The notes below the pieces were generated by a model, which did not search any database, was not told the DNA's origin, and was given only the letters and a program-made list of their open reading frames with translations. DNA of 64,000 nucleotides from an uncultured Erythrobacter sp. (GTDB taxonomy: Bacteria; Pseudomonadota; Alphaproteobacteria; Sphingomonadales; Sphingomonadaceae). The DNA is taken from NCBI RefSeq assembly GCF_958304185.1, contig NZ_OY284433.1, positions 1,984,001-2,048,000 of the forward strand, read 5' to 3'. Of the stretch, positions 6,582 to 27,710 are shown piece after piece. The stretch's first letter is position 1, and each line of letters starts with the position of its first letter. The position numbers were made by a program, and so were the translations under genes.

Positions 6582-6666
6582 GCGGGCGTGGCGGAATGGT
6601 AGACGCCGGGGACTTAAAATCCCCTGAGCTTTGCTCGTGCGGGTTCGAGTCCCGCCGCCCGTACCA
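6582..6666 (+). tRNA. tRNA-Leu (anticodon UAA)
   Basis: A complete 85-nt class II tRNA. The acceptor stem GCGGGCG pairs with CGCCCGT (one G-U pair), followed by discriminator A and an encoded CCA. The anticodon loop ACTTAAAAT is flanked by GGGG/CCCC arms and gives anticodon TAA. A long variable arm (TGAGCTTTGCTCGTG) marks a leucine/serine-type tRNA, and the T-arm GCGGG-TTCGAGT-CCCGC is canonical. It reads UUA codons, rare in a genome this G+C-rich. No duplicated 3' end or integrase is seen nearby, so it is not visibly used as an attachment site. Confidence 0.96.
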
Positions 6667-6757
6667 GATAAGTGATTCAGCCTAAGTAATGCAGTTTGAT
6701 GTCTAGGCAGTCATTATCTCCCCCTTAACGTCTTCTACCTATTTCCGTTCTGGGAAC

Positions 6758-6777
6758 ATGGGACAGGCGCGTCCCAT
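6758..6777. promoter_or_regulatory. Inverted repeat in the leader of the PilZ gene
   Basis: ATGGGAC and GTCCCAT form a perfect 7-bp inverted repeat around a 6-nt centre, between tRNA-Leu and the PilZ gene. If the PilZ protein starts at 6830, this lies ~55 nt upstream in a likely 5' leader. It could be an operator or an RNA hairpin. If translation instead began at 6758, the repeat would be coding. Confidence 0.3.
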
Positions 6778-6829
6778 ACATGTCTCGCCAGTGCCAGGAC
6801 CAGGGGCTGTCGGGTTGGGACAACAGGGC

Positions 6830-7471
6830 ATGGACATAGCGACGAATACCGCACGTCTCGAAGAAGCACCCGATACGCTCGGCGCGGAACAGCGCGCCGC
6901 GCCGCGTTTCACATTACTGATCCGCGCAGCCAAACTGGTCTCGGCGCAGGGGGAGTTCGTGTGCGTGATCCGCGACGTTTCGGAAACCGGGGTAAGCGTT
7001 CGCCTGTTCCATGCCCTGCCCAGCTGCAAAGATTACGCGCTGCACATGCCCGCCGGAGCGACCTACGAAGTCACCTGTGTGTGGCAGCGGGAGAACGAAG
7101 CCGGCTTCACCTTTGCGCACAGCGTTGAGGTCGGCCAACTGGTCAATGAAGCGAGCGATTATCCCAAGCGCGGGCTCAGGCTCGGCGTGTGTTTCCCGGT
7201 GATGGTCCACACCTTGTCGGGCAGTTTCGATGCGGTGGTCGAAAACCTCTCACAGCAGGGTGCGCGGATCACCTGCGACCAGCTGCTGGCGATCGACCAG
7301 AATGTGCGGATCGCTGCGCCGGGCCTGGCGGACAAGACCCGCGAAGTCCGCGCCAAGGTGCGCTGGCGGCGTGAACATCAGTATGGAGTGGTGTTCGACG
7401 ACACCTTCACCTTAGGCGAATTCGCGCGGCTGGCGGCCCAGCTTCAGGCACCGGCACTGCTCGGCGAGTAG
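6830..7471 (+). CDS. Tandem PilZ-domain protein (c-di-GMP receptor candidate)
   Basis: 213 residues from the ATG at 6830; the frame is open upstream to 6758, but that extension is low-complexity. Two PilZ-like domains follow each other. The first has RAAPR (the RxxxR motif) and DVSETG (D/NxSxxG), the consensus for cyclic-di-GMP binding. The second has NLSQQG but a weaker arginine motif (KRGLR). There is no attached enzymatic domain, signal peptide or membrane segment, so the protein is probably a cytosolic effector or adaptor. It has no operon partner. The ribosome site is weak (GGGA ~10 nt upstream), so the start is uncertain. Confidence 0.82.
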   Translation: MDIATNTARLEEAPDTLGAEQRAAPRFTLLIRAAKLVSAQGEFVCVIRDVSETGVSVRLFHALPSCKDYALHMPAGATYEVTCVWQRENEAGFTFAHSVEVGQLVNEASDYPKRGLRLGVCFPVMVHTLSGSFDAVVENLSQQGARITCDQLLAIDQNVRIAAPGLADKTREVRAKVRWRREHQYGVVFDDTFTLGEFARLAAQLQAPALLGE

Positions 7472-7482
7472 CTTGCCCGAAA

Positions 7483-7971
7483 TCAGGCCGGCACGAACTT
7501 CATCGCGACCCCGTTGATGCAGTGGCGCTTGCCGGTAGGCTTAGGGCCGTCGTCGAAGATGTGCCCCAGATGCCCGCCGCAATCGGCGCAGTGCACTTCG
7601 GTGCGGGGGTAGCCGATCACGTAATCGGTCGACGTGCCGACCGCGCCCTTGTCGATCGCCTGCCAGAAACTCGGCCAGCCGGTGCGGCTGTCATACTTGT
7701 GCGCCGAGGCATAGAGCGGGTTCGCGCAGCCTGCGCACGCGAAGGTGCCCTTGCGCTTTTCCTTGTCGAGCGGCGAGGTGAAGGCGCGTTCCGTCCCTGC
7801 CTGCCTCAGCACATAGAACTGATCCTTGGTCAGCGCCTTGCGCCATTCGGCCTCGGTTCTGCCCTTGGGATAGTTCTTGGCTTCCGCGGGCGCGGCGGAG
7901 CAGGCGCCGATAAACGGCAGCGCAGCGCCAATGGCGAGCAGGCGGCGGCGATCAATCACAGGCAGGCGCAT
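7483..7971 (-). CDS. msrB: Peptide-methionine (R)-S-oxide reductase, exported Tat lipoprotein
   Basis: 162 residues. The core is a complete MsrB domain: EAEWRKALTKDQFYVLRQAG, two zinc CxxC pairs (CAGC and CADC), GWPSFWQAI and the catalytic cysteine in RHCINGVAMKF. Unlike the common cytosolic MsrB it has an N-terminal twin-arginine signal (DRRRLLAIGA) ending in a lipobox (PFIGAC/SAAP), so it is predicted to be exported folded and lipidated. Its role would be repair of oxidised methionine in envelope proteins. The start at 7971 is favoured over 7986 because GGAAC lies ~8 nt upstream and the signal peptide is then of normal length. Confidence 0.93.
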   Translation of the reverse strand: MRLPVIDRRRLLAIGAALPFIGACSAAPAEAKNYPKGRTEAEWRKALTKDQFYVLRQAGTERAFTSPLDKEKRKGTFACAGCANPLYASAHKYDSRTGWPSFWQAIDKGAVGTSTDYVIGYPRTEVHCADCGGHLGHIFDDGPKPTGKRHCINGVAMKFVPA

Positions 7972-8057
7972 CGGGTGGTGTTCCATCTAGGGGGCTTGAA
8001 CGTCCTGTCCTTAATACGCCCGGAACACGCCTGAGGTTTCACCTGCCCATCCCGCGA

Positions 8058-9410
8058 TTAGAAAGTTGTGATCTCAACCTCGAGCTTGCGGAAGCCGTGG
8101 ACGAAGTTGGCGCGCACCCGCTCGACATCACCGGCGACGTGCACCCGCATCCGGCGCTTGTGCATTTCCTCCAGCAGCACCCGCAATTGCAGTTCGGCCA
8201 GCCGCGCGCCGACGCAGCGGTGGATGCCATAGCCGAAGGCGAGGTGACGGCGGGCGTTATCGCGGGTGATGTCGAGCTTGTCAGGGTTCTCGAACACGTC
8301 CCCATCGCGATTGGCGCTGATGTACCACAGCACCACCTTGTCGCCCGCCTTGATGGTCTGGCCGAACACCTCGGTGTCCTCGGTACAGGTGCGGCGCATA
8401 TGGGCCAGCGGCACCTGCATCCGCAGGATTTCCTGCACGGCATTGGGGATCAGTTCGGGGCGTTCCTCGTAGAGTTTGCGCTGATCGGGGAACTTGTCGA
8501 GCGCGTGGATGATGCCGCTCATGGTGTTGCGGGTGGTGTCGTTCCCGCCCACGATCAGCAGCACCAGATTGCCCATGAATTCTTCCGGGCTCATCTGGTT
8601 CATCGCGGGCGAGTGGATCATCATCGAGATGAGATCATTGCCCGGTTCCTTGTCCATCGTCCGCTCGATCCAGAGCGACTGGAAATAGCCCGCCATTTCC
8701 TGAAGGATCCCCCAGCGCACCTCGTCGAGCGATCGCACCGCACCCAGTTCGGTATCGCCCGCCCAGTCGGACCAGAAGGTCAGCAAGCGGCGGTCCTCCC
8801 ACGGGAAGCCGAACAGGATTGCCAGCATCCCGGTGGTGAGTTCGATCGAGACGGTGTCGACCCAATCGAACACTTCGCCGCGCGGCAGGCGGTCAAGCAC
8901 TTCGCCCGTGCGTTGGCGGATTTCGGCTTCCATCTCGGTGATAGCGGTAGGGGTGAACTTGGGCGCGACGGTGCGGCGCTGCCCGGTGTGCTGCGGGCGG
9001 TCCATCGCAATGAACATCGGCAGCTCGCGGCGCTGGGCGCCCATTTCGGCCAGCTGCGCATCATCGGGCCGTTCGAGGATGGTGATACCGCCATGCTCCC
9101 AGCTCGACGAGAAGGTTTCGGGCAGGGCCTCGATATGCTGGATCGCCTTATGGCCGACCACTGCCCAATAGGGGCCGAATGGGCTTTCGGGGATCCAGTG
9201 GAGCTGGCCCGCCGCGCGCATTTCGGCGAAAACCGGCTGCCAGGTATCCTCGGCATAGATTTCCGAGCGGCTCACATCCCACGGGTGCGAATGGCGGAGA
9301 CGTTCTTCGGGATGGGCGGCGAAGTGCGCTTTGAGCGCGTCGTAAGAACTCGGCTCGCGGCGCACTTGCGGGCGCTGAACAGGGGGCGGGGTGGGGGCGA
9401 TGGTGGCCAT
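8058..9410 (-). CDS. Cytochrome P450, CYP153-like
   Basis: 450 residues, a full soluble bacterial P450. The I-helix oxygen-activation motif is VGGNDTTRN, the ExxR is EILR, and the haem loop is FGYGIHRCVGARLAE with the axial cysteine. Several stretches (FIAMDRPQHTGQRR, EVFDWVDTVSIELTT, PLAHMRRTCTEDTE, RLAELQLRVLLEE) resemble CYP153 alkane/fatty-acid terminal hydroxylases; that sub-family call is from memory of the family, not a search. It needs a ferredoxin and a ferredoxin reductase; a fitting reductase is encoded at 13021-14265, but no ferredoxin for it is in the window. GGGAG precedes the ATG. A palindromic operator lies ~70 bp upstream. Confidence 0.88.
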   Translation of the reverse strand: MATIAPTPPPVQRPQVRREPSSYDALKAHFAAHPEERLRHSHPWDVSRSEIYAEDTWQPVFAEMRAAGQLHWIPESPFGPYWAVVGHKAIQHIEALPETFSSSWEHGGITILERPDDAQLAEMGAQRRELPMFIAMDRPQHTGQRRTVAPKFTPTAITEMEAEIRQRTGEVLDRLPRGEVFDWVDTVSIELTTGMLAILFGFPWEDRRLLTFWSDWAGDTELGAVRSLDEVRWGILQEMAGYFQSLWIERTMDKEPGNDLISMMIHSPAMNQMSPEEFMGNLVLLIVGGNDTTRNTMSGIIHALDKFPDQRKLYEERPELIPNAVQEILRMQVPLAHMRRTCTEDTEVFGQTIKAGDKVVLWYISANRDGDVFENPDKLDITRDNARRHLAFGYGIHRCVGARLAELQLRVLLEEMHKRRMRVHVAGDVERVRANFVHGFRKLEVEITTF

Positions 9411-9476
9411 GTCTGTCTCCCGTCAGGCAGCCTCGTGCATGGGCCGCTCCGATCCGAGTCGCATCCTCAGACTAAC

Positions 9477-9491
9477 TGACAGCAATGTCAA
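9477..9491 (-). promoter_or_regulatory. Palindromic operator overlapping a -35 element before the CYP153-like gene
   Basis: TGACA-GCAA-TGTCA is a perfect inverted repeat, extended imperfectly to ACTA...TAGT on its flanks. On the minus strand its outer half supplies a consensus -35 hexamer (TTGACA, 9491-9486) pointing toward the P450 start at 9410. The -10 candidate 17 nt on (GAGGAT) is poor. The site has the look of a TetR-type operator; no matching regulator gene lies next to it. Confidence 0.5.
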
Positions 9492-9512
9492 TAGTCGGTT
9501 GCGAATGGAGAC

Positions 9513-10793
9513 TTATTCGGCAGGTTCAACCGGGGCAGGCGCACGGCGGGCGAACCAGCTCTTCTTGGCGCGCCCGGCCCCGCCCGACTTCATCACCCGC
9601 TTGCGGAACAATAGCGATCCGCCCTTCACCAGCAGAAGCACCGCAATCCCCTGCCACAAGACCGCAAGCGCATGGGGCCACAGCGTCTCCTCCAGCGCGG
9701 CGCGGGCCAGCATGGCGAAGGGCGAAGACAGCGGGAAGGCGATCGCCCCCAGCTCCAGCGGGGTGCCGGTCTGGCCGATATTGGCCGCCGACAGGAAGAA
9801 CACCATCAGTTGCAACATCGTCACCGGCATCGACAGGGTCTGCACCTCGCGCACCGAGGCGGCCATCGCCCCAATCGTCAGGAACAACGAGCCGAGCAGC
9901 AGATAGGCCATCGTGAAATAGATCAGCCCCAGCACCATGAACATCGGCCAGCCGACCGCCGGGCCGGGCAGTTCGCGGAAATTGGTCTGGGTGACGGTGA
10001 CAATCGCGTCTTCGGCAATCGCCCAGAACGCCCAGCCGACCGTGCCCCACACCGCAATCCCGACGAAGGACACGCCTAGCATCGCGAACAGCTTACCCAT
10101 GAACACCGCATCCATCGGCAAGGCCGCGGCGAGGATTTCAATGATCTTGTTGCCCTTTTCCTCGGCGAGGTTGGACAACACCATGCCGCCCAGCAGCATC
10201 GTCAGCAGGAACAATACCATCTGCGCTGCCTGAGCGGTGCGCACCCGGTTGGTGCGTTCGGACGCGGCGCTGGTGGCGACCACTTCGCTGGTGGCCGTGG
10301 GGAACCGCGAGGGCGAAGCGCCGCTCGCTGTCGCTGCGATCAATTCAATCGGCCCCGACCAACGATCAATCTGACCCTTCGTGCCGACCAGTTGCGGCGC
10401 GGCCAGCGATCCGGTCAGGATCGCGGCGTAATTGCCCCGGCGCTGATCCAGAAAGGCGCGCGCATCGAAATTGCTGTCCTGCGCAGCCTCTTTGATCACC
10501 CGCAATTCGGGCACCTGACCGCCGAGCTGCGGGCGCAGGACATTGGCAGCCGCAATCATCGCCGCGTTGTCGTCAGGCGAAAGGGCCAGGCCGACTTCGA
10601 TGCTGACAGCACTGCGTTGCACCTGCCCGCCGATACTGCCCGCCAATCCGCCGATCAGCACCGGGAAGAGCGGGCCGAGCAGGAAAAACAGGAAGGCGCG
10701 GCTGAACAGCACCGCGACGAAATCGCGCCGGGCGATGACCCAGGCGGCTTCCAGCGTGGTGAGGCGCGGGCGAAGCATTTCGGTATCGCTCAT
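9513..10793 (-). CDS. ABC-2 type transporter permease (NatB-like)
   Basis: 426 residues. After a short cytosolic start (AWVIARRDFVAVLFSRAFLF) the first membrane segment leads to a large ~150-residue extracytoplasmic loop. Five further hydrophobic segments follow (for example AAQMVLFLLTMLLGGMVLSN and MFMVLGLIYFTMAYLLLGS). This is the topology of NatB/COG1668-type export permeases. Its start overlaps the stop of the ATPase gene by ATGA, so the pair is translationally coupled. Such pairs export sodium, drugs or peptides; the substrate is not evident here. Confidence 0.88.
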   Translation of the reverse strand: MSDTEMLRPRLTTLEAAWVIARRDFVAVLFSRAFLFFLLGPLFPVLIGGLAGSIGGQVQRSAVSIEVGLALSPDDNAAMIAAANVLRPQLGGQVPELRVIKEAAQDSNFDARAFLDQRRGNYAAILTGSLAAPQLVGTKGQIDRWSGPIELIAATASGASPSRFPTATSEVVATSAASERTNRVRTAQAAQMVLFLLTMLLGGMVLSNLAEEKGNKIIEILAAALPMDAVFMGKLFAMLGVSFVGIAVWGTVGWAFWAIAEDAIVTVTQTNFRELPGPAVGWPMFMVLGLIYFTMAYLLLGSLFLTIGAMAASVREVQTLSMPVTMLQLMVFFLSAANIGQTGTPLELGAIAFPLSSPFAMLARAALEETLWPHALAVLWQGIAVLLLVKGGSLLFRKRVMKSGGAGRAKKSWFARRAPAPVEPAE

Positions 10794-11800
10794 GCGCGGT
10801 TCCCCTGATTATCGGCTTCCAGCTGACGCGCAGCGGCCTCGCCCGCGATGGCGACGAAGGCATCGTGCAGGCCAGCGCGCTCGATGGAGAGCGAGAGAAT
10901 CCCCGCCTCGCCTTCGATCAAGCCCTTGAGCAGCGGTTCGATCCCGCTTTCGGGCAGCGGGAACTGGAAGAAATCGCCATTGCGGCGGGTGTCGGTAGGC
11001 AGGGCCGAAAGCCATGCGCCTTCGCGCGCCCGCGTCTCCAGCCGCACCTGCGCTGGGATGCGGTCGCGCGCGGCCTCGACAGACCCTGCGTAAGGCACCT
11101 TGCCGCCTGCAATGATCGCCACGCCTTCGCACAGGCGCTCGGCATGGTGGATCACATGGGTCGAGAAGATCACGGTCACGCCATCCTCGGCCAGCGCGCG
11201 GATCATCAGTTCCAGCTTGCCCTGATTGATCGCGTCGAGGCCGGAGAATGGCTCGTCCAGCACCACCAATCGCGGACGGTGCACCAGCGTGCCGAGCAGC
11301 TGGACGGTCTGCGCCATGCCCTTCGACAGTTGGCGGATCTGGCGGTCAGCCGCATAGCCGAGATCGTGGCGTTCCAGCAGTTCGGCAGCGCGTTTGCGGC
11401 CCTCCTTAAGCGGAAGCCCGCGCAGCGCGCCCATGAAGGCAATCGCCTCGATGCACTTCATCGCCGGATAGAGCCCGCGCTCCTCCGGCAAGTAGCCGAT
11501 CAACCGGCCGATATCATGCGGGCGATCATGCCCGAACACGCGGCGCACGCCTTCGTCCGGGTCGATGATGCCTAGCAGCATCCGCAGCGTCGTGGTCTTG
11601 CCCGCGCCGTTCGGCCCGAGAATCCCGTAAATCGCGCCTTCGGGGACAAAAATGTCCACCCCATCAACCGCGCGGGTGCCGTCAAAGCTTTTGACCAGCC
11701 CGCGGGCTTCGATTGCGAGGGGGCGCGCATCGGCCGGGATGGCACTGAAGCCGTCCGCCCGATTGCCCGATGCTGTGTGATCGCTTACCGCCATATCCAT
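10790..11800 (-). CDS. ABC transporter ATP-binding protein (NatA-like)
   Basis: 336 residues with Walker A GPNGAGKTT, a Q-loop region LIGYLPEERGLYPAMK, an ABC signature variant LSKGMAQTVQLLG, Walker B LVVLDEPFSGLD and the switch histidine in FSTHVIHHAE. After the ~230-residue nucleotide-binding domain comes a ~90-residue C-terminal extension common to the NatA/COG4152 group. It energises the downstream permease. A second ATG two codons in (11794) is an equally good start. Confidence 0.9.
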   Translation of the reverse strand: MDMAVSDHTASGNRADGFSAIPADARPLAIEARGLVKSFDGTRAVDGVDIFVPEGAIYGILGPNGAGKTTTLRMLLGIIDPDEGVRRVFGHDRPHDIGRLIGYLPEERGLYPAMKCIEAIAFMGALRGLPLKEGRKRAAELLERHDLGYAADRQIRQLSKGMAQTVQLLGTLVHRPRLVVLDEPFSGLDAINQGKLELMIRALAEDGVTVIFSTHVIHHAERLCEGVAIIAGGKVPYAGSVEAARDRIPAQVRLETRAREGAWLSALPTDTRRNGDFFQFPLPESGIEPLLKGLIEGEAGILSLSIERAGLHDAFVAIAGEAAARQLEADNQGNRA

Positions 11801-11846
11801 AGCCTACGCGGTTAGCGGGAAGGATTAAACGGGAGCCTCTCCGAAT

Positions 11847-12902
11847 ATGGTTAATGCTCCGGTAGCATCTGACCTTGCAGACAGGATTGCGGGGGAGGCG
11901 GCCGCCTTGGGCTTTGCCGTGTGCGGCTTTGCCAGCGCAGGCGAAGACCCGCTGCGCGCCGCCCGGCTGGAACAATGGCTGGGCGAAGGGCAGCACGGTT
12001 CGATGGAGTGGATGGCCGCGCGGCTCGACCACCGCCGCTCGCCCCAAGGACTGTGGCCTGAGGCGCGCAGCGTGATCGCGCTGGGGATGAGCTACGCCCC
12101 GGCCCATGACCCACTGGCGCTGGAGGGGTCAGACACCCACGCGCGGATTTCGGTTTACGCGCAGGGCAAGGATTACCACGATGTGGTGAAGAAGCGCCTG
12201 AAAGCCCTCGCCCGCTGGCTGGTGGGGGTCGAACCGGGGGCCGAGGTCAAGGTCTTCGTCGACACCGCCCCGGTGATGGAAAAGCCGCTGGGTGAGGCGG
12301 CGGGGATCGGGTGGCAGGGCAAGCACACCAACCTCGTCAGCCCCACGCACGGCAGCTGGCTGTTTCTGGGCGCAATCTACACGACGCTCGACCTGGCCCC
12401 CGCTGAGCCGCACCGTGACCAATGCGGCAGCTGCCATGCGTGCCTTGACGCCTGCCCAACGGACGCCTTCCCCGCCCCCTATCAGCTCGATGCGCGGCGC
12501 TGCATTTCCTACCTCACCATCGAACACAAAGGCCCGATTGCAGAGGAATTCCGCGTTGCCTTGGGCAACCGCATCTATGGCTGCGACGATTGCCTTGCGG
12601 TCTGCCCGTGGAACAAGTTCGCGAGCGCCGCGCAGGCCATCCGCGAATTCCTCCCCCGCGCCGAACTGGTCGCCCCGCGCTTGGGCGAGTTGCTGGCGCT
12701 GGATGATGCGGGCTTCCGTGCGCTGTTTTCCGGCTCGCCGATCAAGCGCATCGGGCGCGACCGGTTCGTGAGGAACTGCCTCTATGCAGCGGGCAATAGC
12801 GGCAATCGGGCGCTAACCGCGCAGGTCAGCGCGTTAACGAGCGACCCCGATCCGGTGGTGGCAGAGGCGGCCGAGTGGGCTTTGGCGAGGCTCGGCGCCT
12901 GA
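11847..12902 (+). CDS. queG: Epoxyqueuosine reductase
   Basis: 351 residues. The N-terminal cobalamin-binding reductase region includes [27 protein letters not shown] and [13 protein letters not shown]. Two 4Fe-4S cluster motifs follow: [16 protein letters not shown] and [15 protein letters not shown]. The C-terminal ~80 residues form a HEAT-like helical tail. This is the standard QueG order. The enzyme carries out the last step of tRNA queuosine synthesis, reducing epoxyqueuosine in the anticodon loop. The gene diverges from the ABC ATPase gene; downstream it converges on the ferredoxin reductase. Confidence 0.95.
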
Positions 12903-12906
12903 CCTC

Positions 12907-13016
12907 CCCCTCCCCTTGCGGGAGGGGGTCGGGGGGAGGGGGCTCCACGCCAGCGGCTAGGCAAACGAGGCCTGCGGCCTCGACCCCTCCCCCAGCCCCT
13001 CCCGCAAGGGGAGGGG
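12907..13016. repeat. Large G/C inverted repeat filling the queG/reductase gap
   Basis: The left arm (12907-12941, beginning CCCCTCCCCTTGCGGGAGG) and right arm (12984-13016) are near-perfect inverted complements of ~33 bp. Between them is a smaller perfect hairpin, GAGGCC-TGC-GGCCTC (12967-12981). The element starts 4 nt after the queG stop and ends 4 nt before the reductase stop, so it fills the whole convergent gap. It would form a strong hairpin on either transcript and may act as a bidirectional terminator. Its sequence style is that of dispersed repeats of this bacterial group. Confidence 0.75.
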
Positions 13017-13020
13017 AGAT

Positions 13021-14265
13021 TCAGATCAAATCCTTGATCGCCACCTCAGGGTCAGCCAACAGCGCCGGATCGATCCGGCCCGCCCCGCTCTCCAGCAGCT
13101 TCCGCGCCTGGACATAGTCCTTCATCGTCCCCACGCAGTCGAAGGCGATCGGCTTGCCATCCTTGAGGTAGACCACCGTGAACTTGCGGGTCTCGGGATC
13201 GCCGCGCAGCACCGTCTGATCAAAGCCGAGGCTCAGCCCTGCGGTTTGCAGCTTCAGATCATACTGGTTCGACCAGAACCACGGCAGCGCGTGGTAAGGC
13301 TCCTTCTCGCCCATGATCGCGCGTGCCACGGTGTTCGCCATGTCATGCGCGTTCTGGACCGATTCCAAGCGGATCACCGCGCCATCGGCAAAATCGTTGG
13401 AGTGAGCGGCGCAGTCCCCGATGGCGTAGATGTCATCAAGCGTGGTGCGACAGCAGAAATCCACATCGACCCCGTTGCTCCCCGCCGCGCCCGCTGCAAT
13501 CAGCGGCGCGACCGCAGGCACCACCCCGATGCCGACGATCACCATGTCGCAGGCGACCTCCTCGCCATTGTCGAGCCGCACGCCCGTCACCCGGCCCGCT
13601 TCCTCGCCCAGCACGGCGTGGACGCCGGTGCTCAGCCGCACGTCGACGCCCTGACGGCGGTGCTCCTCGGCATAGAAGGTCGACAATTCTTCACCCGCCA
13701 CGCGTGCCAGCAAGCGGGGGAGCATCTCGACCAGCACCACCTCGCAGCCGAGCTTGCGTAGCACAGCCGCCGCCTCCAGCCCGATATAGCCGCCGCCGAT
13801 CACCACCGCACGCTTCGCCCCATCGGCGAGGGACTGCATCATCGCATCGGCATCGGACTTGTCGCGCACGTAGAACACGCCCGGCAGCACCGCACCCGGC
13901 ACCGGCAAGCGCCGCGGGTCGCCCCCGCCTGACCAGATCAGCTTGCGATAGGTCACCTGCGCACCATCGCTGAGAGTGAGCGTGTGCGAGGCCGGGTCAA
14001 TCCCCGTCACCGCCGCACCGAGGCGCAGGGTGATGTTCTTCTCCGCCCAGAACTTCTCGGGCCGGATCATGATCCGCTCGAACCCCTTGTCCCCGGCGAG
14101 ATACTCCTTGGAGAGCGGCGGGCGTTCATAGGGCGGCGCATTGTCGCGCCCGATCATCAGGATCGAACCTTCGTGGCCGTGCTGGCGCAAGGCAATCGCC
14201 GCCTGCGCCCCGCCGTGGCCGGTGCCAACGATCACGACATCTGCGTGTTGCGTGGTTGTGGTCAT
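13021..14265 (-). CDS. NAD(P)H-dependent FAD ferredoxin/rubredoxin reductase
   Basis: 414 residues from the ATG at 14265. The FAD Rossmann motif [19 protein letters not shown] opens the protein, [13 protein letters not shown] is the family hallmark, [21 protein letters not shown] is the NAD-binding fold, and [10 protein letters not shown] is the second FAD motif. A C-terminal reductase domain ([17 protein letters not shown]) identifies the ferredoxin-reductase subgroup that serves P450s and dioxygenases. Its proximity to the CYP153-like gene (3.6 kb away) suggests it may feed electrons to that enzyme through an unlinked ferredoxin (inference). Confidence 0.93.
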
Positions 14266-14348
14266 GTGCTTGCTATGCCCCTCCGGCGTCTTGCGGCCCT
14301 TGATGTGGCGCAAACAGCCGGAGGGTCAACCCGCCATAACGACGAGTG

Positions 14349-17300
14349 CTACCGTTCGAGCAAATTGCGGGCCTGGCTGGCGATCTGGGCGAGCATTGCC
14401 GCACCCACCGGCGGGCGGGCCTGTGCACGGGCGATCATGGCGCGGAACTGCGCCACGCCTTGCGCATTGCGCTCGGCCCATTCGGCGACAGCACCGCGCG
14501 GGTCATCTGCACCCGACTTGGCCTGCATCAGCCGCCGCAGGAACTCGATCCGCATCTGCTGGAAATCCCGCGCGAGGCCGGACACCAACAGCCGCTCCCA
14601 CACATCAGACGGTGACATATAGGCCGCCGTTCCCTGCGCCCAGTCGAGCCCCAAGCGGGTGCCGATATCGGTGAAGGCGTGGGTGAGCAGCTTGGTCTCG
14701 ATCCCGGCGACGAGCGCGCCTTGCGCGAGGCCCACCGCCCCGTCAAAATCGAACAGGTTGGCGACCTTGGCAGCCAGCGCCTGGGGCGCTCCGGCGGCGA
14801 CAAAGCGGTCCCGCAGGGCCCGCGAGCGGGCACGCGGCTCGTCGGTGAGCAATTCGTCACGGCCTGAAACCAGCGCTGCAACGCCGCTCTGCAATTCGCC
14901 GATCATCGCCCCGGCAGCAACCTTGCCCGACGCGGTGCGCAGCACGTCCGACATCAGGTTGCCGACCGCCGCCGCCAGTCGGTCGAACAGCACCAGGCGC
15001 GCCGCTTCGGGGATGTCGGCCCCATCAAGCTCGCGCCACAGCGGGTCGAGCCCGAACAATCGCTCGGCCACCACAAAGGCGGCGGCAACTTCCGCAAGGC
15101 CCACGCCCTCTTCCTCGGCCAGTTCGAAGGGGTGAACCATGCCGAGCCGGTTGACGATGCGGTTGGACAGGCTGGTGGCGATCATCTCGGACCGCAGCCG
15201 GTGGCCGCGAATCTCGGCGGCATAGGTCTTGCGCATGGCCGAAGGGAAGCGCGCCAGCAGCACAGGCTCAAGCACCGGATCGTCGGGCAGCGTGCTCGCT
15301 TCAATCGCCGATTGCAGCGCCAGCTTGGCCGAAGACAGCAGCACCGCGAGTTCGGGACGGGTCAGCCCCTGCCCGTCCGCCGCGCGGCGGCTCAGGGTCT
15401 CGCCATCGGCGAGCCCTTCAGTGCGGCGGTCGAAATCGCTGACTTCCTCCAGCTGCTCGATCAGGCGGATATAGGACGCCGTGGCGCCAGCCCCGCCGCT
15501 CGATGCGACCGAAAGCGCAAGCGCCTGCAAGCGGTTGTCTTCGAGCACCAGCGCGGCGACTTCGTCCGTCATCGCGGCCAGCAGCGTATTGCGCTTCTTC
15601 GGGGCGAGCTTGCCCGAAGCGGTTGCCGCCGCCAGCGCGATCTTGATATTGACCTCGTTGTCCGAGCAATCGACGCCGGCCGAATTGTCGATGAAGTCGG
15701 TGTTGATGCGGCCCCCATTGAGCGAAAACGCGATGCGCCCGGCCTGCGTCACGCCGAGGTTCGCGCCCTCACCGATCACGCGGGCGCGCACTTCGGTGGC
15801 ATCGACGCGCAGGCCATCATTGGCCGGATCGCCGACCGCGATGTTGTTTTCCTGCGGCGCCTTCACATAGGTGCCGATCCCGCCGAACCACATCAGGTCG
15901 ACGGGCGCGCGCAAGATCGCGCTGATCAAGGCTTCGGGCTCGATTTCCTTCGCCTCGATCCCCAGCACTTCACGCGCCTGCTTGGGCAGCTTGATCACCT
16001 TGGCCGAGCGCGGGAACACGCCGCCGCCCTTGGAGATCAGCGACGCGTCGTAATCCTCCCAGCTCGACCGGGGGAGTTCGAACATCCGCTTGCGCTCTTT
16101 CCAGCTCGCAAGCGGATCGGGCGAGGGGTCGATGAAGATGTGGCGATGATCGAAGGCGGCAACCAGCTTCAGCGCCTTGGACAACAGCATTCCGTTGCCG
16201 AACACATCGCCCGACATATCGCCGCAGCCTGCTACGGTGACGGACTGGGTCTGCACGTCGATGCCCATTTCGCGGAAGTGGCGCTGGACCGAAACCCACG
16301 CGCCGCGCGCGGTGATGCCCATCGCCTTGTGGTCGTACCCGTTCGAACCGCCGCTGGCGAAAGCGTCATCCAGCCAGAAATCACGACTTTGCGCGATCCC
16401 GTTGGCGATGTCGGAGAAGGTCGCGGTGCCCTTGTCGGCGGCGACGACGAAATAGGGGTCTTCGCCGTCGAGCACTTGCACGCAGTCGGGGTGAACAACT
16501 GTCCCGCCAATGATGTTGTCGGTTACCGACAGCAGGGTGCGGATGAAGATTTCATATGCGGCGCGGCCCTCTGCCGCCCAGCCTTCGCGGTCGATCGCAG
16601 GAGAGGGGAGCTGCTTGGGATAGAACCCGCCCTTCGCGCCGGTGGGCACGATCACGGCGTTCTTCACGCGCTGCGCTTTCATCAGGCCGAGGATTTCCGT
16701 GCGGAAGTCGTCGCGCCGGTCAGACCATCTGAGGCCCCCACGCGCCACCGCGCCCGAGCGTAGGTGAATGCCCTCGACCCGGCGCGAATAGACGAAGATT
16801 TCGCGCCACGGCACCGGCTTGGGCAGGCCGGGGACGAGCGCGGAGTCGATCTTGAACGCCAGCGCCTCAGCCGCCGCCGGGGCGAAGGCATTGGTGCGCA
16901 GCACTGCGTCGATCACCGCGCGGTAGAGCCGCAGCAACCGGTCGTCATTGATCGCCGTGACCTTGGCGAGGCCGCGGGTGAAGGCGCTTTGCGCAGCGGC
17001 AATCGCCTCGTTCCGATCACCGGCGAAGGTCGGATCGTGGCGCGCGGCGAACAGGTCGATCATCGCCCGCGTCACCTGCGGCGCGGCGACCAGCGCATCG
17101 ACCACGGTGTAGATCGTGTAACTCACTCCGGTCTGGCGCAGATAGCGATAGACCGCGCGCAGCCAGTTGGCGCTGCTCGGGGCGAGACCGGCGGCGGGGA
17201 TGAGGCGGTTGAAGGGATCATCCTCCGCCGTGCCATTCAGCACTTCGGCCAGCGCGCCTTCGATCAGGCCTGCACGCTCCAGCAGCGCGCCCGCATCCCG

Positions 17301-19067
17301 CCCGGCGGGCACGGTGAGGATGAAATCGTGGATCGAACCGAGGCTCGCATCGGTCAGGAAGGTCGGCACTTCGGCAGCGACCCGGAAGCCGAAGTTCTCC
17401 AGCGCCGGGACCGCATCAGACAGCGCCAGCGTGCCGGTCATCACATAGACCTTCAGCCGCAGCGTATCGGCCCCGTCACCATCGAGCCGGTAGAGCCGCA
17501 CCGTGCGGGTGGCGCGGGTCACTTCGCCTTCGGCCACCACCAGCGTGCGCAGCTTGGCGATGTCGCGCGCGGCTTCCTGCGGGCCATAGGTCAGGCGGTA
17601 ACCGGTCGGGAATGCAGGCGCATAACGCGCGGCGAGCGCAGCGGCGCGGCCTTCTTCCTCGCTGGCCGCAAGATGGCCTGCCACCGCCTCGTTCCAGCCG
17701 CGCAGCAGATCGACCAATTGCGCTTCAATCGCGGCATCATCGGGCAGATCGGCGCAGGCGCGCACATCGACCAGGAAGCGCAGCAGGGCGAGCGAGGAGC
17801 TTTCGACCTCAAGGCTCCAGTCAAGCAGCGCCGCACCGGGCGTGCCGAGCAGCATCGCCTGAATCTGCAAGCGCACATCGGTCGACAGCTGATCGCGCGG
17901 CAACCACACGAAGGCGAAGACGTGCCGCTCCAGCGTGGCGCGCACCATGATGAGGCGCGGGCGTGGACGGTCGATCAGGGCCATCTTGGCGGTCACCAGA
18001 TCGGCGACCCGCGCAGGCTCAAAGGCGGTCAAAAGGTCATTGGGCAGCGAGGTGAAGGCGTGCACCAGCGCCTTGCCATTATGCCCCGCCGGATCGAAGC
18101 CGAGCTGCTGGGTCATGCCTGCAACGATCGCGCGCAGCACCGGCACTTCGCTCGGCCGCGCGTTCAGCGCCGCGCTGGTCCACAACCCGGCATGGATCGA
18201 CAGCGCGGTAATCGCGCCACTTTCGCGCACCGGCACGATGAACAGATCGAGCGGGCTGAAGCGGTGCACCCGCGCCTGCACATTGGACTTGATCGCCAGC
18301 AGCGCCTTGGGCGTGCCAGCCGTCTCGTGCCGGTCGAACCATTCGAACGCGCGGGCAAAGCTGACTTCGGCGAGCAACTCGCCCGCCGAAGCGCGGCAGA
18401 TGCCGAGCTGCTGGGCGGTCGTCCCGTCACGGTGGCGGGTGAGGTGGCCGAGCTGGGTCAGCATCCCGCCGCCCAGCCAGCCGAGCAGCGCGCTCGCTTC
18501 GGGGTCAATCGCCCCGGCCAGTACCGCATCGGCGTTGATCGCGGTCTGCATCGCGGGCCAATCGCTGACAGCGGCATGGACATCGGCGAGGGTGGATTGC
18601 AACGCTTCGAGCAGGTCGCGCCGTTGGCGGGCATCGACGCGCGGGGTTTCGATATAGATCAGCGATTCGCGCGTGCCGTCCTTGCCCAGCCCGGTGATCC
18701 CACCTGCGCCATCGCGCTCGACCGGGATGACGGGGTGCAGCAGCCGATCAATCGCGAGCCCCTGCGCGGCAATCGCCGCCGCAATCGAATCGACCAGAAA
18801 CGGCATGTCATCATTGATGATGGCGATGCGCAGGTGGCGCCGGTCGCCGGTTGCGGATTCGATCTGGACCAGCGATTGGCCGGGCGCGCGGGTGGCCGCA
18901 GCGGCGAGCAGCCAGGTGGCGGCTTCTTCCAGCGCAGGCTTCTCTACCGGCGCGTCACCGGGAAGCAGCGAAGCTTCAAGCTGAAGGCGCAAGGCCTTGA
19001 TCAACGCGCGTTGTGGCGCTTGGCCCGTGGATTTGGGCGCCGCGGCGGCAACGGTCTTGGACCCCAT
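14349..19067 (-). CDS. gdhB: NAD-specific glutamate dehydrogenase, large GDH-180 type
   Basis: 1572 residues, close to the ~1600 usual for GDH-180 enzymes. The frame is open upstream to 19496, but the ATG at 19067 has AGGAG 8 nt away and starts a plausible protein (MGSKTVAAAAPKS). The N-terminal ~700 residues hold the regulatory ACT-like modules (LRIAIINDDMPFLVDSIAAA). The catalytic core contains GGLRWSDRRDDFRTEILGL, VKNAVIVPTGAKGGFYPKQL and the NAD-binding stretch around MWFGGIGTYVKAPQE. It oxidatively deaminates glutamate to 2-oxoglutarate and ammonia, a catabolic role. It stands alone, with ~130 bp of leader before the LLM oxidoreductase gene. Confidence 0.95.
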   Translation of the reverse strand: MGSKTVAAAAPKSTGQAPQRALIKALRLQLEASLLPGDAPVEKPALEEAATWLLAAAATRAPGQSLVQIESATGDRRHLRIAIINDDMPFLVDSIAAAIAAQGLAIDRLLHPVIPVERDGAGGITGLGKDGTRESLIYIETPRVDARQRRDLLEALQSTLADVHAAVSDWPAMQTAINADAVLAGAIDPEASALLGWLGGGMLTQLGHLTRHRDGTTAQQLGICRASAGELLAEVSFARAFEWFDRHETAGTPKALLAIKSNVQARVHRFSPLDLFIVPVRESGAITALSIHAGLWTSAALNARPSEVPVLRAIVAGMTQQLGFDPAGHNGKALVHAFTSLPNDLLTAFEPARVADLVTAKMALIDRPRPRLIMVRATLERHVFAFVWLPRDQLSTDVRLQIQAMLLGTPGAALLDWSLEVESSSLALLRFLVDVRACADLPDDAAIEAQLVDLLRGWNEAVAGHLAASEEEGRAAALAARYAPAFPTGYRLTYGPQEAARDIAKLRTLVVAEGEVTRATRTVRLYRLDGDGADTLRLKVYVMTGTLALSDAVPALENFGFRVAAEVPTFLTDASLGSIHDFILTVPAGRDAGALLERAGLIEGALAEVLNGTAEDDPFNRLIPAAGLAPSSANWLRAVYRYLRQTGVSYTIYTVVDALVAAPQVTRAMIDLFAARHDPTFAGDRNEAIAAAQSAFTRGLAKVTAINDDRLLRLYRAVIDAVLRTNAFAPAAAEALAFKIDSALVPGLPKPVPWREIFVYSRRVEGIHLRSGAVARGGLRWSDRRDDFRTEILGLMKAQRVKNAVIVPTGAKGGFYPKQLPSPAIDREGWAAEGRAAYEIFIRTLLSVTDNIIGGTVVHPDCVQVLDGEDPYFVVAADKGTATFSDIANGIAQSRDFWLDDAFASGGSNGYDHKAMGITARGAWVSVQRHFREMGIDVQTQSVTVAGCGDMSGDVFGNGMLLSKALKLVAAFDHRHIFIDPSPDPLASWKERKRMFELPRSSWEDYDASLISKGGGVFPRSAKVIKLPKQAREVLGIEAKEIEPEALISAILRAPVDLMWFGGIGTYVKAPQENNIAVGDPANDGLRVDATEVRARVIGEGANLGVTQAGRIAFSLNGGRINTDFIDNSAGVDCSDNEVNIKIALAAATASGKLAPKKRNTLLAAMTDEVAALVLEDNRLQALALSVASSGGAGATASYIRLIEQLEEVSDFDRRTEGLADGETLSRRAADGQGLTRPELAVLLSSAKLALQSAIEASTLPDDPVLEPVLLARFPSAMRKTYAAEIRGHRLRSEMIATSLSNRIVNRLGMVHPFELAEEEGVGLAEVAAAFVVAERLFGLDPLWRELDGADIPEAARLVLFDRLAAAVGNLMSDVLRTASGKVAAGAMIGELQSGVAALVSGRDELLTDEPRARSRALRDRFVAAGAPQALAAKVANLFDFDGAVGLAQGALVAGIETKLLTHAFTDIGTRLGLDWAQGTAAYMSPSDVWERLLVSGLARDFQQMRIEFLRRLMQAKSGADDPRGAVAEWAERNAQGVAQFRAMIARAQARPPVGAAMLAQIASQARNLLER

Positions 19068-19197
19068 TTTTGGCTCCTGCTCATCCTGCGTTCCGGCTGC
19101 GCTTTGCGCGCAATATTGTTGTTCCGGATTGTTGTTATCGTGTCTGGCGCGATACCCGCTTTCGTGCGTCTGGCGCAAGCGTGATGATTGCGCAGTG

Positions 19198-20193
19198 TTA
19201 CGCCGCGAGGACGGTTTCGCAGGCTTCCACAGTGAGTTCGAGGCTGCGGATACGTGCCGCTGCGTCATAGGTCGCACCGCAGAGCAGGATCTCGTCCGCG
19301 CCGGTGCGGGCGACGAAAGCCGCGATCCCTTCGCGCACCTGCGTAGGCGTGCCCACGGCTGCGGCTTGCCCCAGATGGGCGAGCATCGCCTGCGCCTGGG
19401 CGGGCAGCGTGTCGGTATATCCCTCAATCGGCGGCGGCAGCTTGCCGGGCGAGCCGCTGCGCAGGCGCACGAAGCTTTGTTGCTGGCTCGTCGCAAGCAA
19501 GCGGGCTTCGGCCTCGGTCTCGGCGGCGAACACGTTCATCGCCACCATCACCTGCGGCTTGGCGAGCGCTTCAGACGGCTGGAAATCGCGGCGATAGACG
19601 GCGAGCCCGGCGTCGAGGTGGTCGGGCGCGAAATGGGCGGCAAAGGCATAGGGCAGGCCCAGTTTTGCCGCGAGGCTCGCGCCAAACAGGCTCGAGCCCA
19701 GCATCCACAGCTCCACCTGCGCGCCAAGGCCCGGCGTGGCGTGGATCGGTAGGTCGTAATCCCCCGTCAGCAGCGCGCGCAGTTCGACCACGTCCTGCGG
19801 AAAATATTCGGCGGCCTGATGGAGGTTCTTGCGCAAGGCCCGCTGCAATTCCGGCCCAGCACCCGGCGCGCGGCCCAACCCGAGGTCAATCCGGCCGGGG
19901 AACAGCGCGTCTAAGGTGCCGAATTGCTCGGCGATCTGGAACGGGGTGTGGTTGGGCAGCATGATCCCGCCCGATCCGATCCGGATGCGGCTGGTGGCAT
20001 TGCCGATATGGGCGAGCACCACTGAGGTCGCCCCGCCCGCGATCCCGTCCATCGCGTGATGTTCGGCGACCCAGAAGCGGTCACACCCCAAGGCTTCGGC
20101 GGCGCGGGCGAGATCGGTGGTGTCGGCGAAGGCCTCTGAAAGCGTGCCGCCTTCGCGCACCGGCACCAGATCGAGCACGGAAAATCGGGTCAT
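19198..20193 (-). CDS. LLM-class flavin-dependent oxidoreductase
   Basis: 331 residues of the bacterial luciferase-like monooxygenase fold (FMN TIM barrel). LDLVPVREGGTLSEAF at the start, WVAEHHAMDGIAGGATSVV, RIRIGSGGIMLPNHTPFQIA and FPGRIDLGLGRAPG are hallmark stretches of the YhbW-like subgroup. The start overlaps the stop of the TPR gene (ATGA), placing it third in a hydrolase-TPR-oxidoreductase operon. The substrate is not predictable. Confidence 0.9.
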   Translation of the reverse strand: MTRFSVLDLVPVREGGTLSEAFADTTDLARAAEALGCDRFWVAEHHAMDGIAGGATSVVLAHIGNATSRIRIGSGGIMLPNHTPFQIAEQFGTLDALFPGRIDLGLGRAPGAGPELQRALRKNLHQAAEYFPQDVVELRALLTGDYDLPIHATPGLGAQVELWMLGSSLFGASLAAKLGLPYAFAAHFAPDHLDAGLAVYRRDFQPSEALAKPQVMVAMNVFAAETEAEARLLATSQQQSFVRLRSGSPGKLPPPIEGYTDTLPAQAQAMLAHLGQAAAVGTPTQVREGIAAFVARTGADEILLCGATYDAAARIRSLELTVEACETVLAA

Positions 20194-25187: not shown

Positions 25188-25352
25188 TCAGCACGCCCTA
25201 CCGGCGCAGGCGTTGCGGCGGCGCAGGACTAGCGGCACCACCGCCAGCGGGGCGTGTTGGGCGACAGCCTCGGGGATCACATCAAACACGGCCAGCAGCG
25301 CGACGGCGATCAGGGCGGCACCGAGCAGCAAGGCTTCTTGTATAGGCGACAT
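25188..25352 (-). CDS. 54-residue single-span membrane peptide
   Basis: It begins MSPIQEALLLGAALIAVALL, giving one membrane span, and ends with a basic, cysteine-containing tail (LRRRNACAGRAC). A strong ribosome site (AAGGAGC, 5 nt spacing) decides the ATG at 25352. It is the first gene after the promoter at 25385-25412 and ends 2 nt before the membrane-protein gene. This position makes it a believable small protein rather than noise. It could also act as a translated leader for the operon. Confidence 0.65.
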   Translation of the reverse strand: MSPIQEALLLGAALIAVALLAVFDVIPEAVAQHAPLAVVPLVLRRRNACAGRAC

Positions 25353-25384
25353 GGAAAGCTCCTTTTGCATAATGGCAAGGGTCC

Positions 25385-25412
25385 TTTACATGTGAGTCGT
25401 CGAACGTGTCAA
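25385..25412 (-). promoter_or_regulatory. Promoter of the Xre-regulator operon
   Basis: On the minus strand, a consensus -35 TTGACA (25412-25407), a 16-nt spacer and a -10 TGTAAA (25390-25385) lie ~33 nt before the ATG of the 54-residue gene. The -35 is perfect and the -10 is moderate. Confidence 0.55.
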
Positions 25413-25507
25413 GGATGCTTTCCATTGATACGCCCAAAACCCCGGTTCACGGTGTGTTTCATCAACTTGCGCGTGACTTATCGCAGTGGGAGGCCTATTT
25501 TCCGGCA

Positions 25508-25582
25508 ATGGCTATGCTGCTGACCACCACCCGCACCACCACGACCCGGACGACTATCCGGGGGCGGCGGCGCGCGGGTTAG
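25508..25582 (+). CDS. Threonine-rich leader peptide upstream of thrS
   Basis: A 24-codon ORF ending in TAG whose core reads LLTTTRTTTTRTTIRG: nine threonine codons within eleven consecutive codons (25523-25555). It lies ~130 bp before thrS on the same strand. It has the hallmark of an amino-acid attenuation leader like ThrL, but is placed before the cognate tRNA synthetase. GGGAGG lies 14 nt upstream of the ATG, which is a loose ribosome site; ATG 25514 and an in-frame GTG at 25454 are alternative starts. The downstream RNA can form two mutually exclusive pairings (see the attenuator entry). The rest of the 341-nt gap before thrS (25371-25712) holds a divergent promoter and the attenuator. 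Confidence 0.75.
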   Translation: MAMLLTTTRTTTTRTTIRGRRRAG

Positions 25583-25616
25583 ACCCAAGCAGCTCGCCGC
25601 CCGGTTCGGGGCGGCG
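25562..25616 (+). promoter_or_regulatory. Candidate attenuator of thrS
   Basis: CGCCGCCC (25595-25602) pairs perfectly with GGGCGGCG (25609-25616) around a 6-nt loop. The identical 8-mer GGGCGGCG also occurs at 25562-25569, inside the leader ORF just after the Thr codons. The two pairings exclude each other. A ribosome stalled on Thr codons would leave 25562-25569 free to sequester the 5' arm. A ribosome reaching the TAG (25580-25582) would cover that region and let the hairpin form. No U-run follows the hairpin, so termination may need Rho or the mechanism may differ. Confidence 0.6.
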
Positions 25617-25712
25617 CGGTGTTCTCCCTGATCCGGTTACTCGCTCAACACCGCTCTTCCGGTGCGCCTGCCTTTGCCCTAAGGCGCGCCCAAACGAGAC
25701 GGAACTGCGACG

Positions 25713-27710
25713 ATGACCGAACTGCTCAAGATCAGCCTGCCCGATGGATCGGTGCGTGAAGTGCCCGCCGGATCGACACCGGCGGATATCGCCGCCGCCA
25801 TCGGCCCCGGCCTCGCCAAGGCGGCGCTGGCCGCGCGCGTCGATGGCGAACTGCGCGATCTCACCCGACCATTTGATGGCGACGCCGAACTGGCGCTGAT
25901 CACCGCGCGGGACGAGGCTGATGCTCTCGAACTTGCCCGCCATGATTACGCCCACGTCCTCGCCGAAGCGGTGCAGGCGCTGTTCCCCGGCACGCAGATC
26001 ACCTTCGGCCCTTCGACCGACGATGGCTTTTATTACGACGTGAAGGCGCCCGACAGCCGCGAGCCGTTCAGCATGGACGATCTCCCCGCGATCGAGGAGG
26101 AAATGCGCCGCATCATCCGCGCCGACAAGCCGCTGCGCCGCGAAGTGTGGAGCCGCGAGGCGCTGATCGCCAAGTGGGCGGGTGAAGGTGAGACCTTCAA
26201 GGCCGAATGGGCCAAGGAACTGCCCGAAGGCGAGGAACTGACGGTCTATTGGTCAGGCTCCGACTGGCTCGATATGTGCCGCGGCCCGCACCTGCCCTCG
26301 ACCGGCAAGCTCGACCCGGAAGCCTTCAAGCTGATGCGCGTCGCGGGCGCTTACTGGCGCGGCGACCAGAACAATGCGCAGCTGACGCGCATCTACGGCA
26401 CCGGCTGGCTCAACAAGAAGCAGCTTCAGGCGCACCTGACGCGCCTTGAAGAGGCCGCCAAGCGCGACCACCGCAAGCTGGGCCGCGAGATGGACTTGTT
26501 CCACTTGCAGGAAGAAGCCCACGGCAGCGTCTTCTGGCACCCCAAGGGCTACCGCATCTGGCGCGAGCTCGAAGCCTATATGCGCCGCAAGATGGACGGT
26601 TCTGGCTACCGCGAGATCAAGACCCCGCAGCTGATGGATGTGCGCCAATGGACCCAGTCGGGCCACTGGGGCAAATATGCGCAGAACATGTTCGCCGTCC
26701 CCGACATGGTGCCCGAGGTCGATGAGGACAGCGGCGCTGCGTCTCCCAAGGTCGCCGATGATGCCGAGTGGCTGGCGATCAAGCCGATGAATTGCCCGGC
26801 GCACGTGATGGTGTTCAAGCAGGGCATCACCTCCTACCGCGATCTGCCGATCCGGCTGGGCGAAATGGGCTGCTGCCACCGCAACGAGCCGCACGGGGCG
26901 CTCCACGGGCTGATGCGCGTGCGCCAGTTCACGCAGGACGATGCGCATATCTTCTGCACCGAGGCGCAAGTCGTGGCCGAAGTGCAGAGCTTCCTCGCGC
27001 TGGCGGATTCGGTCTATCGCGACTTCGGTTTCACCTATGACATCAAGCTCGCCCTGCGCCCCGAAAAGCGCTTCGGCAGCGAGGCGGATTGGGACAAGGC
27101 CGAGCAGGAATTGCGCGATGCTTTGACGGCGAATGGCCTCGCATGGGAAGAACTCCCCGGCGAGGGCGCGTTCTATGCGCCCAAGCTGGAATGGCACCTC
27201 ACCGATGCGATCGGGCGCACCTGGCAGGTCGGCACGATTCAGTCCGACCGGGTTTTGCCCGAGCGGCTCGATGCCAATTACATCGGCGAGGATGGCGAGA
27301 AGCACCGCCCGGTGATGCTCCACCGCGCGATCTTCGGCTCCTATGAGCGCTTCATCGGCATCCTGATCGAACACTTCGCCGGACGCCTGCCTGCGTGGCT
27401 CGCTCCGGTGCAGGCTGTGGTGGCGACCATCGTTTCAGATGCGGATGGCTATGCCCAAGACGTCGAGGCACAGCTGAAGGCGGCAGGCATCCGGGTCGAA
27501 ACCGACACCCGCAACGAGAAGATCAACTACAAGGTGCGCGAACATTCCTTGGCGAAAGTCCCGCACCTGCTGGTGGTCGGCAAGCGCGAGGCTGAGGAAG
27601 GCACCGTGGCGGTCCGCACGCTGGGGGCTGAGCACCAGAAGGTGATGCCGCTCAGCGAGGCCATTGCGATGCTGAAGGGCGAAGGCACGCCGCCCGATCT
27701 GCGCGGATGA
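25713..27710 (+). CDS. thrS: Threonyl-tRNA synthetase
   Basis: 665 residues, a complete class II ThrRS: an N-terminal TGS domain ([20 protein letters not shown]), the editing domain beginning [20 protein letters not shown], the catalytic domain with the zinc-site region [15 protein letters not shown] and the class II motif 2 region [18 protein letters not shown], and a C-terminal anticodon-binding domain ([20 protein letters not shown]). It charges tRNA-Thr. The ATG at 25713 has GGA ~9 nt upstream. The threonine-rich leader and hairpins upstream suggest that its expression senses charged tRNA-Thr. A small membrane gene follows after 1 nt. Confidence 0.97.

Follow-up and report, generated by a model that had tools for sequence, protein, structure and literature searches.

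The 64-kb window, that is, the whole stretch of DNA analyzed here, carries a very short ORF dominated by threonine codons ahead of a gene for threonyl-tRNA synthetase, and this raises the question of whether translation of that ORF could adjust thrS expression to the supply of charged tRNA. Leader-peptide attenuators are known at the trp, his, thr and ilv operons; thrS is controlled in Escherichia coli through a ThrRS operator and in Gram-positive bacteria through a T-box, and the Rfam database includes both Thr_leader and T-box families. The locus contains the following elements:

25508..25582, + strand: leader ORF, with ATG at 25508 and TAG at 25580-25582 (24 codons plus the stop; product MAMLLTTTRTTTTRTTIRGRRRAG*).
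25523..25555, + strand: control-codon block TTTRTTTTRTT, with nine Thr codons in eleven and synonymous drift over 84 leaders.
25713..27710, + strand: thrS, coding for a threonyl-tRNA synthetase according to its Pfam domains, the putative regulated gene.

A 24-codon ORF with nine Thr in eleven, some 130 bp before thrS and on the same strand, had been described in the sequence-only reading, and re-reading the coordinates proved that description exact, with 130 nt between the leader stop and the ATG of thrS (25713), both on the + strand. The thrS product is a full ThrRS, containing TGS, SAD, class II core and anticodon-binding domains in Pfam, and is 98% identical to the enzyme from Erythrobacter ramosus and 97% to that from Porphyrobacter sp. 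SLTP; these identities make an Erythrobacter-like bacterium of the Sphingomonadales the probable source of the window. According to the ORF list, the leader frame is open upstream to a GTG at 25406 (58 aa), but the ATG at 25508 is favored because of the homologs and of the spacing to the -10-like box (see below). The leader block is the single site in the six frames of the 64-kb window with at least six Thr per nine codons. A six-frame scan of the window also retrieved 10 clusters with at least seven identical residues in nine (four of R and one each of P, T, V, S, G and L); since single-residue runs are not rare in this GC-rich window, the Thr cluster alone proves little, and it is conservation that carries weight.

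We found thrS-like matches in 145 of the 147 genomes of the order and inspected the upstream DNA at 90 of these loci, 64 from the same family as the window and 26 from other families of the order. Within 400 nt upstream of thrS, a Thr-cluster ORF occurs at the matching place, as judged by position and alignment, in 25 of the 64 own-family genomes and at none of the 26 loci from the other families. Locus L017, whose leader lies 573 nt upstream, behind another gene and outside the 400-nt scan, raises the own-family total to 26 of 64; loci L008 and L030, with five Thr in nine codons, were excluded from the count because their ORFs start with GTG and are located elsewhere. Even among same-genus relatives, one of five (G127, locus L013) is without the leader.

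A sequence-only alignment of 22 of the 25 leaders (A1; L043, L046 and L048 were omitted as divergent) was used to build a covariance model, R1, which matched 88 of 249 family genomes, once in each. When all 88 matches were checked against thrS, 82 were directly upstream of the gene, five were separated from it by one gene and one was false; the latter, in G153, sits inside a receptor-like ORF and was discarded. R1 gave no match in 161 of the 249 family genomes, G127 among them, in a search whose filters lose weak matches. The leader is present at 22 of the 80 named thrS loci, its carriers including Erythrobacter, Porphyrobacter, Parerythrobacter, Pelagerythrobacter, Altererythrobacter, Croceicoccus, Allopontixanthobacter and Novosphingobium, together with Sphingopyxis sp. 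LC363 and Blastomonas natatoria. Its presence within the family is patchy. A search with R1 over 385 genomes of the class retrieved five matches, four from the same family and a weak one; the weak match is outside the order, at G511:C4:359474-359535 (L235), with an E value of 7e-4.

The five loci with an intervening gene are L017 and those of four genomes of genus g61, and the presence of a gene between the Thr leader and thrS in g61 and G114 implies that the switch may control an operon there. This gene, of about 150 codons and starting MRYYIDTEFNGT, was seen in g61 and G114 (L127:474-920, L017, L130, L132, L134); it looks exonuclease-like by eye, and the L127 copy is without a Pfam match.

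The alignment of 85 R1 matches, designated A2, contains a Thr-rich ORF of 15-35 codons at the same place in 84 of the 85 leaders, L149 being the exception; where there were several possible starts, the script chose the most Thr-rich ORF. Threonine makes up 593 of the 1938 residues of these 84 leaders and is encoded by ACC (306), ACT (136), ACG (127) and ACA (24), and block position -3 is occupied by ACC in 39, ACT in 37 and ACG in 2 (n = 84 leaders). Residues of the ORF other than Thr drift, and the Thr codons swap synonymously. A comparison of thrS leaders had been proposed from the sequence of the window, and its outcome agrees with what was anticipated: as in an attenuator, a short ORF clustering the codons of the cognate amino acid is retained ahead of thrS while other residues drift, and this is the case in 87 of the 249 family genomes. 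The CAC-rich sequence could also be read as His codons in another frame, but we rejected this candidate, as start, stop and synonymous drift fit the Thr frame. As a separate observation, ACT represents 4 of the 128 Thr codons in six genes of the window vs. 136 of 593 in the leaders, where slowly decoded codons may be favored at control positions.

Two further elements were delimited by sequence around the ORF:

25473..25500, + strand: putative leader promoter (GTGACT at 25473-25478 and CTATTT at 25495-25500), proposed from its sequence and from the spacing of the -10-like box in relatives.
25673..25689, + strand: block TTTGCCCTAAGGCGCGC, located after the switch and before thrS and conserved in the leader alignment.

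In 84 of the 85 aligned leaders, 13-15 nt separate the beginning of the -10-like box from the start codon of the ORF. This distance leaves hardly any room for a Shine-Dalgarno site, and the leader transcript thus probably starts at, or next to, the ATG of the ORF, which would then be translated leaderless. A scan with a sigma-70-type consensus did not call the proposed leader promoter and gave one match, at 25346-25373. The block at 25673-25689 may, in turn, be a second, thrS-proximal and unregulated promoter. It has a counterpart in L008, from a genome without the leader and without an R1 match, and the conservation there of the thrS-proximal block suggests that the leader was lost by deletion.

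In Sinorhizobium meliloti, the trpL/rnTrpL transcript has been reported to be leaderless and to open with the leader ORF, in two papers that also show a trans-acting RNA and a trans-acting peptide from this locus (PMC7298713, PMC10117765). Both are alphaproteobacterial attenuators, the leaderless start being reported for trpL and proposed for the thrS leader; conversely, trpL contains Trp codons and precedes a biosynthetic gene, and the trans-acting RNA and peptide are, as far as these texts go, those of trpL.

Seven segments, from the end of the Thr block to a point upstream of thrS, could form the helices of an RNA switch:

25545..25550, + strand: segment A, CCCGGA, pairing with B.
25558..25567, + strand: segment B, CCGGGGGCGG, in the late part of the ORF, pairing with A or C.
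25595..25604, + strand: segment C, CGCCGCCCGG, pairing with B or D.
25601..25616, + strand: segment D, using 25609-25616 to pair with C and, alternatively, 25601-25611 to pair with E.
25617..25623, + strand: segment b, CGGTGTT, which supplies the 5' arm for the second stem of the pseudoknot.
25626..25636, + strand: segment E, CCCTGATCCGG, pairing with D.
25647..25653, + strand: segment b', AACACCG, 3' arm of that stem, pairing with b.

Helix A:B lies within the end of the ORF, b is located between D and E, and b' comes after E. A:B and C:D exclude B:C and, with D:E and b:b', there are five helices in all; the model with which A2 was made contained A:B, C:D and b:b', and not B:C or D:E. In 82 leaders (three of the 85 rows, L043, L048 and one duplicate, were omitted), duplex energies were computed for same-species segment pairs and set against those obtained with permuted partners. 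Out of 20000 permutations, those as good as the own pairing were 4 for A:B, 0 for B:C, 2 for C:D, 0 for D:E and 0 for b:b'. The permutation test ignores phylogeny, the sole guard being 12 control segment pairs, which showed no own-species advantage in the same 82 leaders (1311 to 19844 of 20000). A smaller permutation run with A1 gave p values of 0.0012 for B:C, 0.0002 for D:E and 0.0002 for b:b', with weaker values for C:D (0.047) and A:B (0.12).

RNAalifold on A1 alone yielded A:B, C:D and b:b'. In this alignment, 94.2% of the cells of the state composed of B:C, D:E and b:b' are paired, a share that drops to 40-60% upon sliding; two-sided changes affect 21 cells, the shuffled mean being 6.3. 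The state composed of A:B, C:D and b:b' is likewise 94.2% paired, with 18 two-sided changed cells vs. 6.5 in the shuffles; two of its five column measures fell within the shuffles (pairs changed on both sides, 38/500; further pair types, 171/500). Column covariation also supports C:D; D:E has changes on both sides in four of seven pairs, and b:b' covaries (CG:17/UA:5 and UA:9/CG:6). The medians over 77 leaders are 12 bp for the D:E stem, 2 nt for loop 1, 1 nt for the junction and 12 nt for loop 3. Sterically, such loop lengths should allow D:E and b:b' to form together as an H-type pseudoknot, and in our model the two helices can interlock in this way. The fold of the whole leader from the window is not unusually stable (z -1.36), and own-species pairing had no clear advantage for a candidate sixth helix behind b' (bp:P6; p 0.11).

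The effect of a ribosome on these helices was computed with a stall scan of 81 of the 85 leaders, in which the RNA was masked to 14 nt past the start of the A-site codon and pairing probabilities were obtained. For a transcript reaching the end of E, C:D exceeded B:C in all 81 leaders with the ribosome at the stop codon, and B:C exceeded C:D in 76 of 81 with the ribosome stalled on the Thr codons of the block (averaged, the last one excluded). The leader from the window adopts the B:C plus D:E state with the ribosome over codons 4-14 (counting from 0) and a mixed state at codon 15; the Thr block corresponds to codons 5-15. With a transcript ending at b, a Thr stall led to B:C exceeding C:D in just 56 of 81 leaders, and C:D prevailed in that from the window; this loss of preference indicates that E matters for the switch. 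In a similar scan to the end of b, the C:D level with the ribosome on Thr codons was surpassed by that at the stop in 71 of 81 leaders and by that of the ribosome-free RNA in 55 of 81. For a transcript to the end of E and no ribosome, the mean numbers of pairs were 3.6 for B:C, 3.2 for C:D and 4.3 for D:E, and the window leader forms D:E (8.4); being a mixed state, it does not predict a firm OFF state in the absence of translation. By computation, then, mutually exclusive helices are flipped by a stall on the codons of the cognate amino acid, most consistently when E is included.

We infer from this that the leader senses Thr-tRNA. With ample Thr-tRNA, the ribosome would reach the stop codon and cover B, allowing C:D to form; D would then be unavailable and thrS would stay low. 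With scarce Thr-tRNA, the ribosome would stall in the Thr block and cover A; B:C would form and leave D free for D:E, and b:b' would then complete the H-type pseudoknot, favoring thrS expression. This scheme matches the cascade of his-type attenuators, where A:B and C:D alternate with B:C and D:E. The proposal, made from the window alone, that a Thr-codon leader acts as a regulatory element at thrS thus gains support from its conservation, from the covarying helices and from the coincidence of the stall-sensitive position with the Thr block. It seems to us very probable that the locus bears a ribosome-controlled RNA switch by which the supply of threonyl-tRNA would set thrS expression, upward when the charged tRNA is short.

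The output step is the least certain part of the scheme. No site resembling a terminator was detected between 24900 and 26200 on the + strand, nor is C:D followed by a U-tract: the best 8 nt after D hold 2-4 T in 77 of 82 leaders and more than five in none, and there are few T behind b' too. An intrinsic terminator, understood as a GC hairpin followed by a U-tract, was thus not detected ahead of thrS; the leader, lacking the U-tract, does not simply replicate the thr or ilv attenuator of E. coli, although it is attenuator-like up to the output step. Additionally, E begins about 10-14 nt after D and yet both D:E and b:b' are maintained, which suggests that the decision is probably taken after b' and not directly behind C:D. 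The likeliest output is escape from a downstream, probably Rho-assisted, termination, in which the pseudoknot would prevent premature termination downstream of the switch. More fully, we tentatively propose, granting the whole of it a little less than an even chance, that a Thr stall on a leaderless ORF turns thrS on through the H-type pseudoknot (D:E plus b:b'), which would itself be the ON signal and would guard against Rho or unmask the thrS start, and not by breaking an intrinsic terminator; and that Thr-codon control of thrS arose more than once in the Alphaproteobacteria, with different output devices.

The main alternative, possible although we doubt it, is a translational output, with free E masking the thrS start under Thr-replete conditions and D:E exposing the start codon upon stalling. 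Masking by E would account for the missing U-tract, and in some relatives E is complementary to the thrS start region in addition to D. Against positions -25 to +12 of thrS, E from the same species paired better than permuted partners, with 21 of 10000 permutations as good, E being one of nine segments tested; the other eight gave 787 to 9759 of 10000 and none stands out. The figure was 4 of 10000 against positions -9 to +9, a region picked after seeing the data, in which 24 of 77 leaders reached -8 kcal/mol vs. 16.2 expected, a count equaled by 70 of 10000 permutations. However, the effect is small and confined to a subset of leaders, neighboring control stretches gave 360, 1799 and 1520 of 10000, and the E:start duplex from the window itself is weak (-6.7). 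Likewise, in five genomes the gene directly after the leader is not thrS.

Plain attenuation by an intrinsic terminator, with C:D playing the part that a terminator hairpin has in the thr, ilv and his leaders of E. coli, appears unlikely to us. C:D is a GC-rich hairpin with the right topology, and leaders from family f72 (see below) have a hairpin with T6 at the corresponding place, but C:D is not followed by a U-tract, no terminator is predicted at the locus, and the strong maintenance of D:E and b:b' is at odds with an E that comes too late to stop termination directly behind D. Much less probable still is autoregulation of the E. coli kind, in which ThrRS would bind a tRNA-like operator and the presence of Thr codons would be incidental: the loop of C:D is often GGU, a Thr anticodon, and E. 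coli ThrRS represses its own mRNA, as is also mentioned in PMC2965389, but by eye this loop varies in sequence and size (GGTTC, GGTATC, GGCTTC, GGGACC and others) and it covaries with E, and an operator for ThrRS leaves the conserved Thr ORF unexplained. A chance low-complexity repeat without function, conceivable insofar as the 10 clusters of the six-frame scan show that single-residue runs are not rare, has a negligible probability given that, over many genera, the ORF keeps its position, frame, start and stop with synonymous drift and the helices are maintained too.

We then return to the preferred reading, a ribosome-controlled RNA switch at thrS, and to how it compares with known systems. 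At gathering score, the sole Rfam match in the whole window is a tRNA gene at 6582-6663, with none at the leader; no match appeared at E values up to 5 within 25350-25750, nor at gathering score in seven related loci. No Thr leader at thrS was found among the matches listed from the titles and abstract beginnings of the open-licence literature. The combination of a Thr-rich ORF and a conserved RNA switch at thrS was found neither in Rfam nor in the literature searched. Lopatovskaya et al. 2010 (Mol Biol 44:128) reportedly dealt with attenuation at aminoacyl-tRNA operons, and some thrS attenuators may possibly have been predicted before.

The principle of leader-peptide attenuation at synthetase genes is already known. 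Such attenuators are predicted or known at pheST, and at trpS and leuS in Streptomyces (PMC1262725), and at hisS in bacilli (PMC2965389). The sequence-only reading knew of no description of a Thr-codon leader at thrS, and we found none in the literature searched. The amino acid and synthetase attenuators share with the window type a short ORF with a run of cognate codons, a gene for the same amino acid, and exclusive helices with the same stall logic (A:B plus C:D vs. B:C). In contrast, the window type is located at thrS, is without a U-tract terminator, and has the additional covarying helices D:E and b:b', with pseudoknot geometry.

The LEU element of actinobacterial leuA combines a leader ORF containing a codon run with a candidate pseudoknot, and its base stem is formed by the codon run and the Shine-Dalgarno box (PMC1262725). 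It thus resembles the window type in having a codon-run leader ORF with a candidate pseudoknot beside it, predicted here from covariation and loop lengths, and differs in amino acid, gene and phylum, as well as in the pairing of its codon run with the Shine-Dalgarno box; in our leaders, pairing of the Thr block with the thrS start gave no own-species signal (own -7.46, permuted -7.61).

If the preferred reading is true, the leader would provide a further mode of sensing the supply of threonyl-tRNA at thrS, in addition to the operator of E. coli and to the T-box of Gram-positive bacteria. It would also be a natural case, with 85 aligned examples, where translation of a leader seems to govern a pseudoknot instead of a U-tract terminator, and a fusion to the thrS leader would serve as a simple reporter of threonyl-tRNA shortage in Erythrobacter, Novosphingobium and their relatives.

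Thr leaders are also found at thrS elsewhere in the class. We scanned 500 nt upstream of 67 thrS loci from other families of the class and found clusters of at least five Thr in nine codons at three of them, L182, L186 and L188. Family f72 (L186, L328-L334) has Thr leaders directly upstream of thrS at eight of nine evaluable loci, seven of these eight leaders having terminator-like ends with T6, GGAGGGTTTTTT; by eye, they also contain the antiterminator arms GGAGGG/CCCTCC. These classic-looking thrS attenuators resemble the window type in their Thr-codon leader adjoining thrS and in a -10-like box that, by eye, immediately precedes the ATG; the GGAGGG/CCCTCC arms and GGAGGGTTTTTT are, however, particular to f72. 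Family f73 (L182, L371-L394) has an ORF ending in Arg-Thr at all 25 loci, and in Thr-Thr-X-Arg-Thr at 16 of them. The leaders from f72, f73 and f58 bear no evident sequence relation to the window type, and, by eye, a -10-like box a short distance ahead of the ATG is seen again among the other-family leaders. Thr-codon control of thrS therefore looks to be a repeated occurrence in the class, and these unrelated solutions make possible a comparison of output devices.

Two minor observations concern individual families. Locus L188, from f58, has a Thr cluster leader, MRTHPVLRSTATTTTTATGGRWRMRA, at -322 to -241 of thrS; there was no Thr cluster at 24 loci from 23 of its relatives, with a maximum of three Thr in nine codons. 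The ORF from f73 lies up to about 210 nt before thrS and contains few Thr codons, and in the loci inspected it is followed by a GGCCGGG..CCCGGCC hairpin.
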